Assembly (NCBI GenBank): GCA_948560485.1
Contig: CAOXUF010000115.1
Span: 1 to 6,729, forward strand
Reading direction: 5' to 3'
Origin: an uncultured Eubacterium sp.
Lineage (GTDB): Bacteria > Bacillota_A > Clostridia > Lachnospirales > Lachnospiraceae
Length of the DNA stretch: 6,729 nt
Shown: one piece after another, positions 1,384 through 6,729 of the stretch
Layout of the letters: the number at the start of each line of letters is the position of its first letter
Numbering within the stretch: position 1 is the first letter of the stretch
Notes under the pieces: generated by a model
Told to the model about the DNA's origin: nothing
Database searches by the model: none
Seen by the model: the letters and a program-made list of their open reading frames with translations, nothing else
Position numbers and translations under genes: made by a program

Positions 1384-2481
1384 ATGGCAAAAAAGATTCG
1401 AAAACAGACTTATTCTTTAGGGCAGTACCTTAAAGCTATGGAAAAAGAAGTAATCCGCACAGACCAGGATTGTCAGAGACTTTCCGGCCAGTGGAATGCA
1501 AACATGATAAATGAGCTTCTTTACACTGTTCTGACAGATGGTTATATTCCACCGATTATTTTGGGAGAGGAAACAAGCTCCGGAATCACGAGATCATGGA
1601 TAATTGACGGTCTTCAGCGTTCCAGTTCCCTTGCATTATTCCGGTATGGAAATAAAGCGATTACACGGAAGTTAGATGAATACATGGTTCCCTATCAGCG
1701 GAAAGTACTGGATGAAGCCGGAAACATAAAAAGAGACGCACAGGGAGAGATCGTATGGGAAACTGCGGAATGTGATATTCGCGGAAAAACCTATGGCAAG
1801 CTGCCGGAAGAATTACAGGATATGTTCAACGAATATCAGTTGGAAACCGCAATTCACCAGGACTGCGATATAACTCAGATTTCTAAACTTGTTCGGAAAT
1901 ACAATAATCATCAAGGAATGAGTGTGAATCAAAAAGCATTCACATACGCTGACAATTTCGCAACAGATATTAGACAGATAACGCAGAATCGTTTCTTCCT
2001 GGATGTATATACCTGTACAGGAAAAGGAAAAATCAATGGGACACCTGAGAGAGTTGTAATGGATATGGTTCTTCTCTGTAATTATCCGGAAAATTTCAAA
2101 AAAGATGCAAAGAAAGGGTTCTCGTGGCTGAATGAAAATGCAACCCTACAGGATTTTGAAACGGTCGATAACCTTCTTACAAGAATGGCTTTATTGAACA
2201 TTACCCCAGGGGCTAGAGAGCTATTCAACTCCAAACATGCACATATTTTTGTAGCATTATTCAAGACATTTGCAGAGCTTGGAAAACCGGATGATGACTT
2301 TGGAAGATTTCTTGAATGGTTCATCAATACTGGAAATAACGTAATGATTGACGGAAAATCATGGAATTCACTGAATGAAGGGCTTGTGTCCACACGAGAT
2401 GCAAATGTTGTACGTGGAAAGTTGGATTTTTTGGTATCGCTGATGAACCTGTATTTCGAAAAGGACAGGATAGCTGCATAG
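1384..2481 (+). CDS. DUF262 (ParB/GmrS-like) domain protein (365 aa)
   Basis: The N-terminal third matches the DUF262 family. QRLSGQWNANMINELLYTVL (about 31-50) corresponds to the family's R-x-x-x-W and helix signature, PPIIL follows at about 56-60, and IIDGLQRSSSL (about 73-83) is the DGQQR motif with L in place of the first Q. In GmrSD-type restriction enzymes and related defence proteins this ParB-like fold binds and hydrolyses nucleotides. Known multi-domain members add a C-terminal HNH nuclease (DUF1524), which I do not see here. The remaining roughly 200 residues look helical. It may therefore be a regulatory or partner-dependent protein of a phage or integrative element and not a stand-alone nuclease. 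The start follows GGAGG (1371-1375) by eight bases. It lies 13 bases after the sigma-factor gene and is almost certainly cotranscribed with it. Confidence 0.78.
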   Translation: MAKKIRKQTYSLGQYLKAMEKEVIRTDQDCQRLSGQWNANMINELLYTVLTDGYIPPIILGEETSSGITRSWIIDGLQRSSSLALFRYGNKAITRKLDEYMVPYQRKVLDEAGNIKRDAQGEIVWETAECDIRGKTYGKLPEELQDMFNEYQLETAIHQDCDITQISKLVRKYNNHQGMSVNQKAFTYADNFATDIRQITQNRFFLDVYTCTGKGKINGTPERVVMDMVLLCNYPENFKKDAKKGFSWLNENATLQDFETVDNLLTRMALLNITPGARELFNSKHAHIFVALFKTFAELGKPDDDFGRFLEWFINTGNNVMIDGKSWNSLNEGLVSTRDANVVRGKLDFLVSLMNLYFEKDRIAA

Positions 2482-2487
2482 AGGAAA

Positions 2488-2518
2488 ATTGGGGTGTCCT
2501 GCAAATGGACATCCCAAT
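2488..2518 (+). other. 12-bp intergenic hairpin
   Basis: ATTGGGGTGTCC (2488-2499) pairs with GGACATCCCAAT (2507-2518) with a single G-T wobble, around the seven-base loop TGCAAAT. It starts seven bases after the DUF262 stop and ends before the ribosome binding site of the 121-aa gene. No T-run follows on the plus strand, so it is not a standard terminator. It may shield the upstream mRNA 3' end or mark a processing site that uncouples the two genes. Confidence 0.6.
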
Positions 2519-2541
2519 ATGGAAGAAAAGGAGAAAACGTC

Positions 2542-2907
2542 ATGTTTACGATATCAAATATTCTTTTAGATGTAGATAAAGGAATTTTAACAAATAACTT
2601 GAATGAAGATTATTTTTCATACAGAATTGTTTATTTTGTGAATTCTGTAGGTGGAAAAGAGAAGCATTATATAGACACACGGTATGACGGGTTTTGTCAA
2701 GCATTAAAAAATATCATCCGTGGGAATTTGACAACAACAAATACTGTTGTAATTGCGGCTATAATTATTAGGAAAAATGGGAAAAATATTTCCTTGCTTA
2801 GCAGATCATATGGATTCAGTTTGGATGGATATTTTCAAAAGATTTGTGAAGAAAAAGTAGAAAATATCAATAGCAATTATGGAAGGAGAGTGGCGCAATG
2901 GTGTTAG
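2542..2907 (+). CDS. Hypothetical protein (121 aa)
   Basis: The frame is open from a GTG at 2494, but that codon lies inside the 12-bp hairpin. The ATG at 2542 follows AAAAGGAG (about 2526-2533) by eight bases and is preferred. The product is a soluble, mixed alpha/beta-looking protein. It has aromatic-rich segments (EDYFSYRIVYFVNSVGGKEK) and a hydrophobic stretch TNTVVIAAIIIRKNGKN near the middle that looks like a buried beta-strand, being too short and too charged at its end for a membrane segment. I do not recognise the family. It lies downstream of the sigma factor and DUF262 genes and may belong to their transcript. The pentamer array begins about 55 bases after its stop. Confidence 0.72.
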   Translation: MFTISNILLDVDKGILTNNLNEDYFSYRIVYFVNSVGGKEKHYIDTRYDGFCQALKNIIRGNLTTTNTVVIAAIIIRKNGKNISLLSRSYGFSLDGYFQKICEEKVENINSNYGRRVAQWC

Positions 2908-2936
2908 GTTATACACCAAAGATTAGAAGCCCTTAA
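2898..2936 (+). CDS. 12-codon ORF overlapping the preceding stop, possible gene remnant
   Basis: An ATG at 2898 overlaps the last 10 bases of the previous gene and follows GGAAGGAG (2881-2888) by nine bases, so it has a proper translation start signal and looks translationally coupled. The frame encodes MVLGYTPKIRSP and stops at TAA 2934-2936. A good start on such a short frame suggests a gene whose body was lost when the non-coding array beyond it arose or was joined. It could also be a chance site. CCCTTAAGGG (2930-2939) is a perfect palindrome over the stop codon. Confidence 0.25.
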   Translation: MVLGYTPKIRSP

Positions 2937-2962
2937 GGGATTGTGGTAAACAGAAATAATGA

Positions 2963-3135
2963 GTTAAGTATTTTATGATTAGGTGAGATGGGCTTTGTTA
3001 GGTTAAGATACGTCTTGCTGAGTCAAGTTATGCTATGTTAGGCTAAGGTAGGCATTTTATGCTATGATGGGCTTAGATGTGTTCTGCTACGCTAAGTTGG
3101 GTTAGGCTTAGATTAGGTATGCTAAGTTAAGCACA
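2963..3135. repeat. Degenerate pentamer array, rule G-N-T-N-N
   Basis: From 2963 the sequence divides into consecutive five-base units that almost all begin with G and have T at position three: GTTAG, GCTAA, GGTAG, GCTAT, GATGG, GCTTA and others. I count 35 units. Thirty-three begin with G, and 28 of those have T at position three. The two exceptions are four-base TTAT units (2973-2976 and 3057-3060). Both follow a G-Y-A-T-T unit, so ATTTTATG occurs twice, 84 bases apart, and GATGGGCTT occurs twice, 79 bases apart. This suggests an internal duplication. The units are not identical copies, which separates this from a simple microsatellite. Stops occur in the reading frames, so it is not coding. 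The function is unknown; a binding ladder for an oligomeric nucleic-acid-binding protein or a replication/transfer site are possibilities. Confidence 0.85.
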
Positions 3136-3180
3136 TAATCACATGTGGTGGTTGGAAAATCTGACCGTTGCATGTGATTA
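3136..3180. repeat. Inverted repeat / long hairpin next to the pentamer array
   Basis: TAATCACATG (3136-3145) and CATGTGATTA (3171-3180) are a perfect 10-bp inverted repeat. The 25-base centre holds GGTTGG (3150-3155) opposite CTGACC (3161-3166) around the loop AAAAT. TGGT and GTTG (3146-3149 and 3167-3170) bridge the two stems by G-U pairs only. As RNA it could thus form a nearly continuous 20-bp stem, while as DNA only the outer and part of the inner pairs form. It starts exactly where the pentamer array ends. No T-run follows directly. A weaker bulged hairpin, GGGATGA/TCATTCCC (about 3191-3211), lies just downstream before T-rich sequence and could end upstream transcription. Confidence 0.7.
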
Positions 3181-3226
3181 AAATCTTGTGGGGATGAAGA
3201 AATTCATTCCCATTCTTTAGTTTGGA

Positions 3227-3255
3227 TTGTTTCATATATGGGAATCTGTTATACT
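3227..3255 (+). promoter_or_regulatory. Sigma-A type promoter of the MNT/HEPN operon
   Basis: TTGTTT (3227-3232) and TATACT (3250-3255) are separated by exactly 17 bases. The implied transcription start, near 3262, leaves a short leader of about 25 bases before the GTG start at 3288. The spacer contains CATATATG (3233-3240) within an imperfect dyad, a possible site for autoregulation by the toxin-antitoxin complex, though this is inference. The promoter makes the pair an independent transcription unit. Confidence 0.65.
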
Positions 3256-3287
3256 ATAAACAGGATGTAAGGAAGGGAGTGAAGCCT

Positions 3288-3617
3288 GTGGATACGCATG
3301 ATATAGTATTGGACTTTTCAAGACAAGTGAAGGATATATTAGGTGACAAGCTATCCAAGGTTATTTTATATGGTTCTTATGCAAGGGGAGATTACAGGGA
3401 AAATTCGGATATTGATATTATGGTTTTGACTACGCTGACAGATAATCAGATTATGCAGATTAAAACAGATATATATGACCTTGCATTTGATTTTCAAATG
3501 GAATATGGTGTCGATATAAGTGTGCTTATAAAGAATGAAGAACATTTTAATTACTGGTTGGGGGCACTGCCTTTTTATGATAACGTTCAAAAGGAAGGGG
3601 TTATTTTAAATGGATAA
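3288..3617 (+). CDS. Minimal nucleotidyltransferase (MNT) antitoxin (109 aa)
   Basis: This is a small nucleotidyltransferase of the type paired with HEPN toxins. In characterised HepT/MntA systems the MNT protein silences the toxin by transferring AMP groups to it. The family signature is complete: GSYARG (residues 29-34), then SDID with metal-binding aspartates D41 and D43, and a third acidic residue, D76, in YGVDISVLI. The length fits the family. The frame is open from a TTG at 3222, but the GTG at 3288 is chosen. AAGGGAG (3273-3279) lies eight bases upstream, and the earlier start would fall inside the promoter. The next gene overlaps its end by eight bases. It acts in the cytoplasm as the antitoxin. 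Identification is confident; AMP transfer here is inferred from the family. Confidence 0.9.
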   Translation: MDTHDIVLDFSRQVKDILGDKLSKVILYGSYARGDYRENSDIDIMVLTTLTDNQIMQIKTDIYDLAFDFQMEYGVDISVLIKNEEHFNYWLGALPFYDNVQKEGVILNG

Positions 3618-4002
3618 CAGGCAAACTGAATTAAGTAATTACCGACTTCATCAGGCAGAGGAAAGTTTAAAGGTATCCAGGTACTGTTACGATAATGAAT
3701 TTTACAAGGATTCAATAAACCGTTCCTATTATTCAGCGTTTTACTCTGTTAAAGCAGTGCTTGCGCTTACTTCTGTTGATTTTAAACGTCATAAGGATGT
3801 TATAGGGCATTTTAATAAGGAATATGTTGCAACAGGGATTTTTCCTAAAATAATAGGAAGAAAACTAGGCATCCTTAAGCAGATTAGGGAAGACAGTGAT
3901 TACGATGATTTTTATATCGCTTCTAAAGAAGAAGCACATGAGCAAATAGAAACAGCGAAGTTGGTTTTGGAAAAAATAAAAGAATATTTAAAGTTAAATT
4001 AA
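3610..4002 (+). CDS. HEPN domain toxin (130 aa) of the MNT/HEPN pair
   Basis: An all-helical HEPN protein of the COG1895-like type, in which members act as RNases or nucleotide-modifying toxins. Visible family features are HQAEESLKVSRYCYDNEFY (about 14-32), NRSYYSAFYSVKAVL (about 37-51, the NRxYYxxF helix), the RHKDVIGHF segment (about 60-68) and REDSDYDDF (about 93-101), which resembles the R-x-x-A-D-Y helix. The canonical R-x4-6-H catalytic motif of other HEPN RNases is not obvious, so the catalytic mechanism cannot be asserted. The ATG overlaps the antitoxin stop by eight bases and follows AAGGAAGGGG (3591-3600) by nine bases, indicating translational coupling with antitoxin made first. 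A bidirectional terminator follows. The pair probably forms a stabilising or anti-phage toxin-antitoxin module. Confidence 0.88.
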   Translation: MDNRQTELSNYRLHQAEESLKVSRYCYDNEFYKDSINRSYYSAFYSVKAVLALTSVDFKRHKDVIGHFNKEYVATGIFPKIIGRKLGILKQIREDSDYDDFYIASKEEAHEQIETAKLVLEKIKEYLKLN

Positions 4003-4012
4003 TAACCCTCAA

Positions 4013-4058
4013 AAGCACCAGCGGAAAGAATAAGACATCTTTCTATGGTGCTTCTTTT
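4013..4058. terminator. Hairpin terminator between convergent genes
   Basis: AAGCACCA (4013-4020) pairs perfectly with TGGTGCTT (4046-4053). Inside it GAAAGA (4024-4029) pairs with TCTTTC (4038-4043) around the loop ATAAGACA. A T-rich CTTTTCT follows on the plus strand. It starts 10 bases after the HEPN stop and overlaps the last codons of the minus-strand gene, where on that strand the stem is followed by TTTTGAGG. It can serve both converging transcripts, more convincingly the plus one. Confidence 0.7.
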
Positions 4059-4309
4059 CTGCCCTGTCTCTCACGGATTTCCTCAGATGCCTTTTCAAGA
4101 TAAATCTGCTGCCACTTCTGACGGATAATTTCCTCTTTTAGTTTCCGTGTACGTTTGTCAATATATCTGTCTAGCCACCCCATAATTGAGGACGGTATAA
4201 ACTCTTTAGGAACCTTCTGAATGATGGAAAATAATATGTCCTCTGATTTACTATGGAATTTGCGGAAAAATTTATGTGTTTTGTTTTCCGGTCTGATTTC
4301 TATGTTCAT
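4043..4309 (-). CDS. Small basic hypothetical protein (88 aa), minus strand
   Basis: The frame is open back to 4369, but that codon lies within the -35 box of the promoter. The ATG at 4307-4309 is preferred because GGAG (plus-strand 4318-4321) sits eight bases upstream. The product is soluble and rich in lysine, arginine and glutamate: an N-terminal NIEIRPENKTHKFFRKFHSK, a central helix ending in KEFIPSSIMGWLDRYIDKRT, and a long charged C-terminal helix to EIRERQGRKEAP. I recall similar small proteins on clostridial mobile elements but know no function, so none is assigned. It is the only minus-strand gene of the window and converges on the toxin-antitoxin operon. Charge and size would suit a nucleic-acid-binding accessory protein, which is only a guess. 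Confidence 0.75.
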   Translation of the reverse strand: MNIEIRPENKTHKFFRKFHSKSEDILFSIIQKVPKEFIPSSIMGWLDRYIDKRTRKLKEEIIRQKWQQIYLEKASEEIRERQGRKEAP

Positions 4310-4340
4310 GTGATCAACTCCGTTAGATAATTTCAATCTA

Positions 4341-4369: not shown

Positions 4370-4399
4370 TGGAGAAGATGTAATTAAATAAAGTTGTAA

Positions 4400-4522
4400 A
4401 AGAAATCAGGTGTTAAGCTAGGCAGACCACAAACAACATCTGAGTTATCAAGATTATCCAGTATCAGCAGATCAACACTATATAAATATTTAAAGTTGTT
4501 AGAGGAAGGGGAAACGCATTGA
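4400..4522 (+). pseudogene. 3' remnant of a resolvase-like helix-turn-helix gene
   Basis: A frame open from just after a stop at 4397-4399 to TGA 4520-4522 encodes about 40 residues. They read GVKLGRPQTT followed by SELSRLSSISRSTLYKYLKL. This matches the C-terminal hinge (GRP) and helix-turn-helix of serine recombinases and related HNH/HTH proteins. No start codon lies near its beginning and the catalytic part is absent, so it is a truncated gene end. It closely resembles the tail encoded downstream at about 4854-4928 (SEFARLSRLSRNSVYKYLKI), suggesting a tandem or recombined copy of the same protein type. Its stop overlaps the TTG start of the HNH gene by four bases, so an intact ancestor may have been coupled to it. 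It lacks the roughly 20-residue IPQSFFRYYPQF insert of the downstream copy. Confidence 0.65.
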
Positions 4523-4928
4523 GAAGACAATTAACACAAAAGGATAAGAAGGAAATAGGAACAGAATGCTGTAATTGTGGTTCTACAAAAGAATTGGAAT
4601 ATCATCATATAATTCCAATTAGTTTAGGTGGAAATGATATAAATTCAAATATGGTTTGTTTATGTTATCCATGTCATCAAAAAATACATTATGGTGAAAG
4701 TAAGCATGGATTACATAGTACCATAATAAAAAAGGGATTGAAAATGCAAGGGCAAAGGGTAAACAGATTGGAAGAAAGAAAACTACAGAAGAATCAATAC
4801 CGCAATCCTTTTTCAGATACTACCCTCAATTTGTAAAGGGGAATATTAATCTTTCTGAATTTGCCAGGCTATCCAGACTTAGTAGAAATTCTGTATATAA
4901 GTATTTGAAAATTGTGGATGGTAAGTAA
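4519..4928 (+). CDS. HNH protein with resolvase-like HTH tail, frame broken at A-AAA-AAG
   Basis: The TTG start at 4519 follows GGAAGGGG (about 4504-4511) by seven bases. Residues 1-60 form a zinc-supported HNH nuclease domain: CNC with C17 and C20, YHHIIPISLGGND with H29/H30, an asparagine near 43, then C49, C52, H53 and H57. The zero frame ends at 4836 after an unrelated-looking tail. At A-AAA-AAG (4728-4734) a shift to the -1 frame instead reads GIENARAKGKQIGRKKTT and on to a helix-turn-helix (SEFARLSRLSRNSVYKYLKI), stopping at TAA 4926-4928. The shifted product is about 136 aa and has the linker and tail expected from HNH/HTH proteins and serine recombinases. Either one A was lost from a run of seven, making a pseudogene with a 105-aa truncated product, or the slippery heptamer is used for programmed frameshifting. 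Coordinates given cover the full shifted product. Confidence 0.7.
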
Positions 4929-5016
4929 TTTGTTGGAACTATTAAAAAAATAGAGAAAATGTATATGTCATGGAGAATATAAAAATAGGAAATATGTTTG
5001 GAAGGAGGGGATATTT

Positions 5017-5070
5017 ATGATAGGAGAGACAAGACGGAGAGTATATGATTTTCTTGTTGACTACATATGA
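5017..5070 (+). pseudogene. Truncated LexA-like regulator N-terminus (17 codons)
   Basis: An ATG at 5017 follows GGAGGGG (about 5004-5010) by six bases, a strong translation signal, but the frame stops after MIGETRRRVYDFLVDYI. This resembles the first helix of LexA-like regulators, whose N-termini commonly read xKRxxxVYDFIxxYIxENGYSPS. Just past the stop, a different frame reads YENDYQL before its own stop, as if a frameshift broke the YIxENxYSP segment. The rest of the gene is missing. It may also be a short leader peptide for the gene at 5129. The resemblance rests on very few residues. Confidence 0.35.
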
Positions 5071-5128
5071 GAATGATTATCAATTATAAAAGTATAGGAA
5101 AAATTTATAAGACTGGAGGAATAGGGAT

Positions 5129-5311
5129 ATGAAAGAACTTTTGAAAGATGATGCATTTTCTACAGGAGTAATTTGCGGACTACTTTTATATCAGCAAAAA
5201 GTTATTGCTGCCCATAAAGCGAAGATACCGCTGAAAATTGAGGATGAACTTTATTACTTGGAGAGTGGCAGAGAGAGGTTGGAGCGAGCGATAGACGAAA
5301 TATGTAGATAG
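5129..5311 (+). CDS. Hypothetical protein (60 aa)
   Basis: The ATG at 5129 follows GGAGG (5115-5119) by nine bases. The product begins MKELLKDDAFSTGVICGLLL, a helix with a short hydrophobic run (GVICGLLLYQQKVIAA) that is borderline for a membrane segment but more likely amphipathic. It then continues with an acidic/basic helix (LESGRERLERAIDEICR). No family is recognised; small proteins of this kind are common on clostridial mobile elements. A strong intrinsic terminator follows eight bases after the stop, so it is the last gene of its transcript, which probably begins upstream of the truncated regulator at 5017. Confidence 0.7.
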   Translation: MKELLKDDAFSTGVICGLLLYQQKVIAAHKAKIPLKIEDELYYLESGRERLERAIDEICR

Positions 5312-5318
5312 TCATATG

Positions 5319-5348
5319 AAGCTGTCCCAATTATGGGATGGCTTTTTT
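5319..5348 (+). terminator. Intrinsic terminator after the 60-aa gene
   Basis: AAGCTGTCCCA (5319-5329) pairs with TGGGATGGCTT (5334-5344) over 11 positions, including two G-T pairs, around the four-base loop ATTA. A run of six T (5343-5348) follows directly. This is a textbook rho-independent terminator. Confidence 0.88.
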
Positions 5349-5895
5349 AAATGCATGTTCGAGTACGTTCGATAGAATGGCAAGAAATAATTTCAAAAAG
5401 CCAGTAAACAAGCTATTTATTGCAGTTTCCCTTTAAAGGGAAGTTGTTATTTTGATGCCTGGGAAAGGAAAAAATGTGATCAGTTCGTGAGAGGGCATTT
5501 CTGAGGAAAGTAGGATTGTTAAGACTTGTGGAAAATATATATTTTGCAACGATTTGTTGCATTTTGGAAATACTGAAAACATATTAAACATATAGGTAAT
5601 AAGTATGTTCGTATATGTGCTCGTAGAGAGAAACTATTTTGTTTCTTTTAAGAAAATTTGGAATAAGACTATTTGATACTGAATTAATGGGGAATAAATT
5701 TTTTGAGAGAAAGGGTGGATTAAATCCTACTGGATGGATAGGTTATTATATTAAATGAGAATAATTATTAATTGATGGAAGTGTTGTTCGATGAAGTTGA
5801 TGGAATGAGGAGGAAAATGAAGTAAATAATGCATAAAAGAATAACACTATATGTAGTGAAAATATATACATAAAACACAAAATATAGAATTAATG
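5349..5895. other. AT-rich non-coding stretch, probably decayed DNA
   Basis: No credible gene is seen on either strand. A perfect 16-base palindrome (TTCCCTTTAAAGGGAA, 5427-5442) and weak dyads AGAAAC/GTTTCT (5629-5634, 5641-5646) and CACTA/TAGTG (5845-5849, 5854-5858) are present. A short ORF (5775-5825, MEVLFDEVDGMRRKMK) lacks a ribosome binding site and is probably a remnant or chance. TGTTCG occurs several times (about 5356, 5605 and 5785) without regular spacing. The stretch lies between a terminator and a promoter and fits decayed mobile-element DNA. Confidence 0.5.
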
Positions 5896-6706: not shown

Positions 6707-6729
6707 AGATCGGAAGAGCACACGTCTGA
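6707..6729. other. Illumina TruSeq adapter read-through (artefact)
   Basis: The last 23 bases, beginning AGATCGGAAGAGCACACGTC, are the start of the standard Illumina TruSeq read-1 adapter. They are not part of the organism's genome and should be trimmed. The contig therefore ends because of an untrimmed short-insert read, and the true sequence stops at about 6706. One or two junction bases could belong to either side. Confidence 0.97.

Follow-up and report, generated by a model that had tools for sequence, protein, structure and literature searches.

A degenerate pentamer array in a Lachnospiraceae mobile element probably forms a two-guide VIPR-type locus with guides for sibling elements

What kind of element is a row of five-base units that keeps G at the first and T at the third position and changes its remaining bases? 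Such an array occupies positions 2963–3135 of a 6,729-nucleotide stretch of DNA (the window) from an uncultured Eubacterium sp. of the Lachnospiraceae. The original prediction, made from the letters of the sequence, described about 35 consecutive units, suggested selection for spacing and knew of no described element that fits. This last point has been overtaken: the guide RNA (vrRNA) of VIPR (Viral Interference Programmable Repeat), a system of vrRNA and Vipr protein described in a 2026 preprint in which phage SUSP1 was studied, does fit the array (PMC13142463). VIPR guides consist of 9–16 tandem pentamers, each with a GGY triplet (or a related consensus) and a variable NN; the NN bases pair with DNA while one target base is skipped per unit, and the skipped base is codon position 3 (PMC13142463). 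VIPR loci contain a vipr (RAMP) gene, a vap accessory gene and a structured, invariable 3′ tail (PMC13142463). Beyond this preprint, no second paper on VIPR was found in the literature searched. We give a probability of about 0.9 to the reading that the array is a two-guide VIPR-type vrRNA locus with guides for sibling mobile elements.

Anatomy of the array and its hairpin tail

A hand recount cut 2963–3135 into 35 units, of which 33 start with G and 28 have T third, in agreement with the earlier counts. The single unbroken run did not survive the recount: two of the 35 units must be four bases long (TTAT at 2973–2976 and TTAT at 3057–3060), and the array consists of two blocks with a phase break. 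Its order is one unit (2963–2967), GTATTTTAT, 15 units, GCATTTTAT, 14 units, GCACA and a hairpin. The features are as follows.

2542–2907, forward strand: 121-aa gene, the window's homologue of the block 1 target (own site at 2683–2727).
2968–2976, forward strand: boundary element GTATTTTAT, 9 bases, ahead of guide block 1 (from sequence).
2977–3051, forward strand: guide block 1, 15 GNTNN units (from sequence and decoding).
3052–3060, forward strand: boundary element GCATTTTAT between the guide blocks, which holds the phase break (from sequence; similar elements occur in other arrays).
3061–3130, forward strand: guide block 2, 14 GNTNN units (from sequence and decoding).
3131–3190, forward strand: tail, a long hairpin directly 3′ of block 2 and candidate vrRNA 3′ tail (from the predicted fold).
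3188–3213, forward strand: terminator-like stem-loop followed by a T-rich stretch (from a consensus scan).

Both guide blocks are preceded by G[TC]ATTTTAT. The NN series of block 1 is TA GA GG TT AG AA AC TT GA AA AT AT AG AA AG, and that of block 2 is AT GG TA GT CT AC AA GG AG TA TA AT AA AA. Among the 29 block units, G is first in 29 and T third in 27. The remaining positions had been described as varying freely, which holds for position 2 (A6, C10, G3, T10) but not fully for positions 4 and 5, where C is scarce (1/29 and 2/29). The units are not identical tandem copies, as originally noted: they comprise 20 distinct pentamers and 10 distinct NN pairs. Period and phase are kept as content varies, and the array is not a row of identical or near-identical units of the microsatellite type. 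Tandem Repeats Finder returned a weak 10-base row only, and no CRISPR-type identical repeats with unique spacers were present around the array. Period-5 autocorrelation against shuffled sequence, the check proposed with the original prediction, gave a lag-5 value of 0.511 for 2957–3135, compared with a mean of 0.284 (sd 0.034, maximum 0.408) in dinucleotide shuffles, none of 5000 of which reached 0.511.

The array was also said to end at a strong inverted repeat. The repeat TAATCACATG/CATGTGATTA is indeed present at 3136–3145 and 3171–3180, and array and hairpin form a composite element. RNA of 3131–3200 folds at −25.6 kcal/mol (z −4.54), with none of 200 shuffles equally stable; the tail has no Rfam match at E ≤ 1. 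The hairpin follows block 2 only, with none after block 1. The terminator-like stem-loop falls within backbone common to the related locus L122 (window 3186–3274, 91% identity) and thus belongs to the element rather than specifically to the array. A consensus scan found no sigma-70-like promoter for the array.

The variable bases read against genes of related elements

The published one-base skip was applied to both blocks, such that one NN is read, one target base skipped, the next NN read, and so on. Block 2 then becomes AT.GG.TA.GT.CT.AC.AA.GG.AG.TA.TA.AT..., or [IM]GYVLT[KN]G[SR]YY[IM]. A search of genome_contigs for relatives of the window's DUF262 gene found one, L122, from Lachnospiraceae isolate C64_1. 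At position 11794 of L122, an ATG start of an HNH ORF, block 2 matched 25 of 28 bases, with 23/24 in the first 12 units. None of 1000 order shuffles reached 25 (maximum 22) and none reached 23/24, and the best values at skips 0, 2 and 3 were 18–19/28. L122 was retrieved via the neighbouring DUF262 gene, so that the choice of this test case did not depend on the decoding, and the result serves as a computational check of the one-base-skip code. The longest HNH ORF listed in L122 starts at 11785, not 11794.

The locus L143 also carries an HNH gene, at whose start block 2 scored 21/28 (0/500 shuffles), and five relatives in which no HNH gene was seen gave 17–18 at skip 1. One value departed from the rule, namely 20/28 at skip 3 in L151 (7/500 shuffles). 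Compared by residues, block 2 fitted the HNH family at up to 11/14 (60 shuffles, maximum 8); among the 120 of 183 matches listed, 102 HNH proteins fitted at 8/14 or better, 81 of these at residue 1. Within the window itself the best score of block 2 was 19/28, the HNH target was not found, and the window's HNH ORF at 4519–4836 gave no match.

Block 1 at skip 1 reads Y[DE]G[FL][RS][KN]T[FL][DE][KN][IM][IM][RS]..., corresponding to codons 48–62 of the 121-aa family. Out of 30 bases it matched 23 in L122, 24 in L142, 21 in L143, 25 in L144, 24 in L151, 25 in L157 and 22 in L158, and the number of shuffles in 500 reaching these scores was 2, 0, 4, 0, 0, 1 and 18, respectively. Skip 1 exceeded skips 0, 2 and 3 (17–20) at the homologous site in all seven relatives, which are homologues of one gene and not independent tests. 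Among the 120 of 183 homologues listed, the residue fit rose to 13/15 in P0028, P0060 and P0079 (60 shuffles, maximum 9), and the best site lay at the same offset in 107, the other 13 being without the reference motif. P0028 occurred in one of six and two of six genomes of the genera of G001 and G368, respectively, which supplied the locus L151. The product of the window's 121-aa gene has no Pfam match, and its model, of fair quality (pLDDT 83.6), matched no PDB fold at E ≤ 0.001. In viral_contigs the gene was not found with a single-protein query; a query with a 30-row alignment returned two loci.

The window's own 121-aa site scored 22/30 bases, the best of four skips in the window, with 9/15 residues. 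Self-avoidance by block 1 is possible; its residue fit was 9 or below in 32 of the 120 homologues listed, and the own-site score of 22/30 is no lower than that of two relatives (21 and 22).

Several controls bear on the specificity of this decoding. Crossed pairings failed, with block 1 reaching 7 residues in HNH proteins and block 2 reaching 6 in the 121-aa family, against shuffle maxima of 10 and 9. The skipped base was codon position 3 in both decoded genes. When 187 distinct guides were compared with all collected loci, one skip led by at least 3 in six guides: the two guides of the window and one from L053 at skip 1, and three at skip 3. By eye, the four from outside the window are array-on-array matches (L053 seemingly meeting another array, the three being array copies). 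Guides of the other arrays had skips 0, 1, 2 and 3 as their best in 52, 52, 39 and 40 cases (90 of 199 guides, ties counted), showing no general excess of skip 1 among guides whose targets lie mostly outside the loci compared. Exact target patterns of the two guides occurred 0 and 0 times in viral_contigs, and no perfect target was found, the best being 25/28 for block 2 and 25/30 for block 1.

Phage arrays, the Vipr family and the search for an effector

It had been proposed to look for similar arrays with a common neighbour gene. When viral_contigs was scanned for eleven GNT steps, at least 120 stretches were obtained, which represent a sample, and many of the matches were exact microsatellites. 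With a threshold of at least 7 NN kinds, similar arrays were present in 66 of the 120 phage stretches listed, in addition to the window. A common neighbour did emerge: one RAMP (Cas7-like) protein family of 52 ORFs occurs in 50 of the 66 array loci, with a member within ~1.1 kb of the array in each. For 42 of the 52 ORFs the nearest array is on the same strand, and in 34 of these 42 it lies 3′ of the ORF; for the other 10 it is on the opposite strand, two of them overlapping the array. ORF clustering left sixteen viral array loci and the window without a member, and further members, weak or cut, came from a profile search (L025, L066 and L084). The loci in which Vipr gene and nearest array lie on opposite strands, unlike most, are L029, L044, L048, L055, L072, L087, L103, L114 and L115.

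Seven members of the family had no Pfam match at E ≤ 1, and six members tried against PHROG matched entry 4652, of unknown function. A model of the family (pLDDT 92) matched 70 PDB chains at E ≤ 0.001, and all 50 listed are Cas7-like subunits of CRISPR type III or VII; by this model, the family folds like Csm3/Cas7. In phage SUSP1 the minus-strand ORF 28474–29061 matches the Vipr profile (E 2.6e-43) and is flanked by GGTNN arrays, and the adjacent ORF has homologues in a family from 13 array loci. From their position, these two ORFs are presumed to be the published vipr and vap.

The boundary elements and the mixed second base of the window also have counterparts in these loci. Elements of the G[GTC]ATTTTA type split GNTNN arrays in L056, L084, L111 and L012, and GTATTATAAG does so in L100; among arrays with boundary elements, a mixed second base is clearest in L084 and L111. 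A search for GNATTTTAN flanked by GNTNN steps gave seven contigs, which group by common arrays into L012/L152/L154, L084/L111/L155 and L153. Vipr was present in the fetched stretch of six of the seven (cut in L084) and was not in that of L012, whose arrays match those of L152/L154. Arrays with a mixed position 2 adjoin Vipr in L052, L061, L104 and L111.

Two further observations concern this family. In the phage contig L117, 11 or more GGTNN arrays lie on the same strand within 2609–12922, with close to even NN use (283 units); this contig also carries a complete Vipr and, in addition, a Vipr-like fragment. The clostridial Vipr-family genes in L146, L147 and L148 are each followed by a small HNH-like ORF (by eye), and no GNTNN array was detected in the 3.4 kb examined.

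Vipr itself was absent from the window and from the L122 stretch, with no match at E ≤ 10 (six-frame window, 36-sequence profile), and also from the genome of L122. It was found in 1 of 397 genomes of the Lachnospiraceae family and, with a narrower profile, in 5 of 391 genomes of the class. No window ORF of at least 80 aa clustered with ORFs of other array loci, to which the comparison for vap was limited. The window covers 6.7 kb and ends 3.6 kb past the array, with the rest of the element beyond it; either the effector is encoded past these limits or the array goes unused. A complete VIPR system was not assigned, because the defining vipr gene was sought and not found.

The array shares part of its make-up with published VIPR. 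It has tandem pentamers (15 and 14 units) in which G and T are fixed and NN varies, a predicted structured element after the repeats, and putative targets on competing mobile DNA; on sequence comparison it appears to follow the one-base skip, with codon position 3 passed over, and related arrays adjoin Vipr-family genes. It differs from strict GGY in that position 2 is free (G in 3/29), and from published VIPR in that the window yielded no vipr gene, two guides parted by a 9-base element have one tail, and a Lachnospiraceae mobile element would be set against its own siblings, with one putative target filling the same slot in a relative. The free second base, the lack of an effector in cis within 6.7 kb and the guides for sibling elements would be new relative to published VIPR. 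Class 1 CRISPR-Cas, in which Cas7/Csm3 forms a backbone on crRNA, is similar in the predicted Csm3/Cas7-like fold of the array-linked protein family; however, the array has no spacers between identical repeats, its predicted pairing is non-contiguous, and no cas genes were recognised in the window.

A cargo slot and its possible use

The window aligns with L122 at 10–511 (93%), 501–2488 (86%), 3186–3274 (91%), 4011–4321 (79%), 4734–5020 (93%) and 5094–5811 (77%). Between 2488 and 3186 the window holds the 121-aa gene followed by the array with its hairpin; the corresponding stretch of L122 holds a 121-aa homologue, a 101-aa ORF and the HNH gene, such that the array occupies the place of the HNH gene in the syntenic element. 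In L142, L143, L144 and L151 the 121-aa homologue is followed by a 97–122-aa ORF or an HNH gene. These differing genes after the 121-aa homologue indicate a variable cargo slot.

Plasmids gave no DNA match to window 2480–3300, and phages gave one match of 48 bases. In 397 genomes, DNA of the array region was matched in 17 at E ≤ 0.01, two of them well (G001 and G368); these two match only the stretch after the array, and their loci contain no array above detector limits. No second copy of the array was found in the 397 genomes or, searching by hairpin, in viral_contigs, where the hairpin pattern met one contig, L121, in which no array was detected.

Other parts of the element were noted in passing. 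Directly after the array, 3288–4002 encodes a nucleotidyltransferase (MNT-like) and HEPN pair similar to the MNT-like/HEPN pairs in L142 and L151; L122 has a different pair there (PIN-like by eye). At 4383–4921, stretches resembling a serine-recombinase C terminus (by eye) flank the small HNH ORF at 4519–4836, and 4734–5020 shares 93% identity with L122 over the 3′ part of its recombinase gene and the adjoining flank; the region looks like a broken or replaced recombinase. The last 23 bases (6707–6729) are those of the common Illumina TruSeq adapter, which makes the contig end an artefact. In a genome of the Lachnospiraceae family, L129 contains at ~1490–1560 a G[CT]TNN tandem that is short, uses few kinds of NN and lies between inverted repeats; with its 15–20-base repeats it looks, by eye, like a simple tandem and not a guide.

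These data are consistent with a model in which each block of 14–15 GNTNN units would be gripped at GNT by a row of RAMP (Vipr) subunits; the NN bases would stay free for pairing with DNA and would pass over one target base in every unit. The array would be transcribed, and Vipr encoded elsewhere (in the rest of the element, the host or a co-resident phage) would load the guides, whose binding may repress the 121-aa and HNH genes in rival copies of the element. The earlier suggestion of a protein contacting one G and T per step agrees, by analogy with VIPR, with one RAMP subunit per pentamer. As originally described, period and phase are kept; the reading in terms of spacing was incomplete, since the variable bases carry information.

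We weighed four other explanations. An unlikely one, which nonetheless has some weight, is that the array is a dead remnant left unused after loss of vipr: no vipr lies in the window, the gene is rare in the family, and no promoter consensus was found. However, G1 and T3 are intact at 29/29 and 27/29 and the two guides retain their fit to genes of present-day relatives, so that decay has not advanced far. It is improbable that block 1 instead serves self-regulation, directed at the 121-aa gene upstream of it on its own element and not at rivals. Its own site scores 22/30 at skip 1, the best of four skips in the window, but homologues fit better by residues (up to 13/15 versus 9), and block 2 is without a good target in the window (best 19/28). 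A functionless, mutated old microsatellite of a GTTAN-like pentamer, one of the options first offered, would have the five-base period and A/T-rich variable positions seen here, and simple G[CT]TNN tandems with a small set of NN kinds do exist (L129, by eye); decay would not preserve two positions while altering the rest, and would not yield two stretches of gene sequence in register with their codons, and we regard this origin as very improbable. The idea of a TRAP-like or other ring or filament RNA-binding site, or of a replication or transfer site, at which only spacing matters, is hardly tenable: sites of TRAP (trp RNA-binding attenuation protein) have (G/U)AG triplets with two-base spacers, a period-5 layout that the array resembles, but its triplet is GNT, and its spacer bases are informative, decoding into genes of related elements.

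Taken together, these results favour the reading of the array as a VIPR-type locus with two guides for sibling elements. We tentatively suggest, as a proposal that may well prove wrong, that it is an orphan guide cassette, a portable weapon that members of one mobile-element family use against their siblings, with two guides, no effector and Vipr supplied in trans; it sits in the slot where rivals carry an attacked gene, and the other guide is directed at the conserved gene beside that slot. If the VIPR-type reading is correct, VIPR guides would also serve mobile elements of gut Lachnospiraceae, would tolerate a free second triplet base, and could travel with no effector gene nearby. Their targets would lie on sibling elements and would include the gene that otherwise takes up this slot, and effector-less guide cassettes would make the borrowing of Vipr in trans by guides directly testable.
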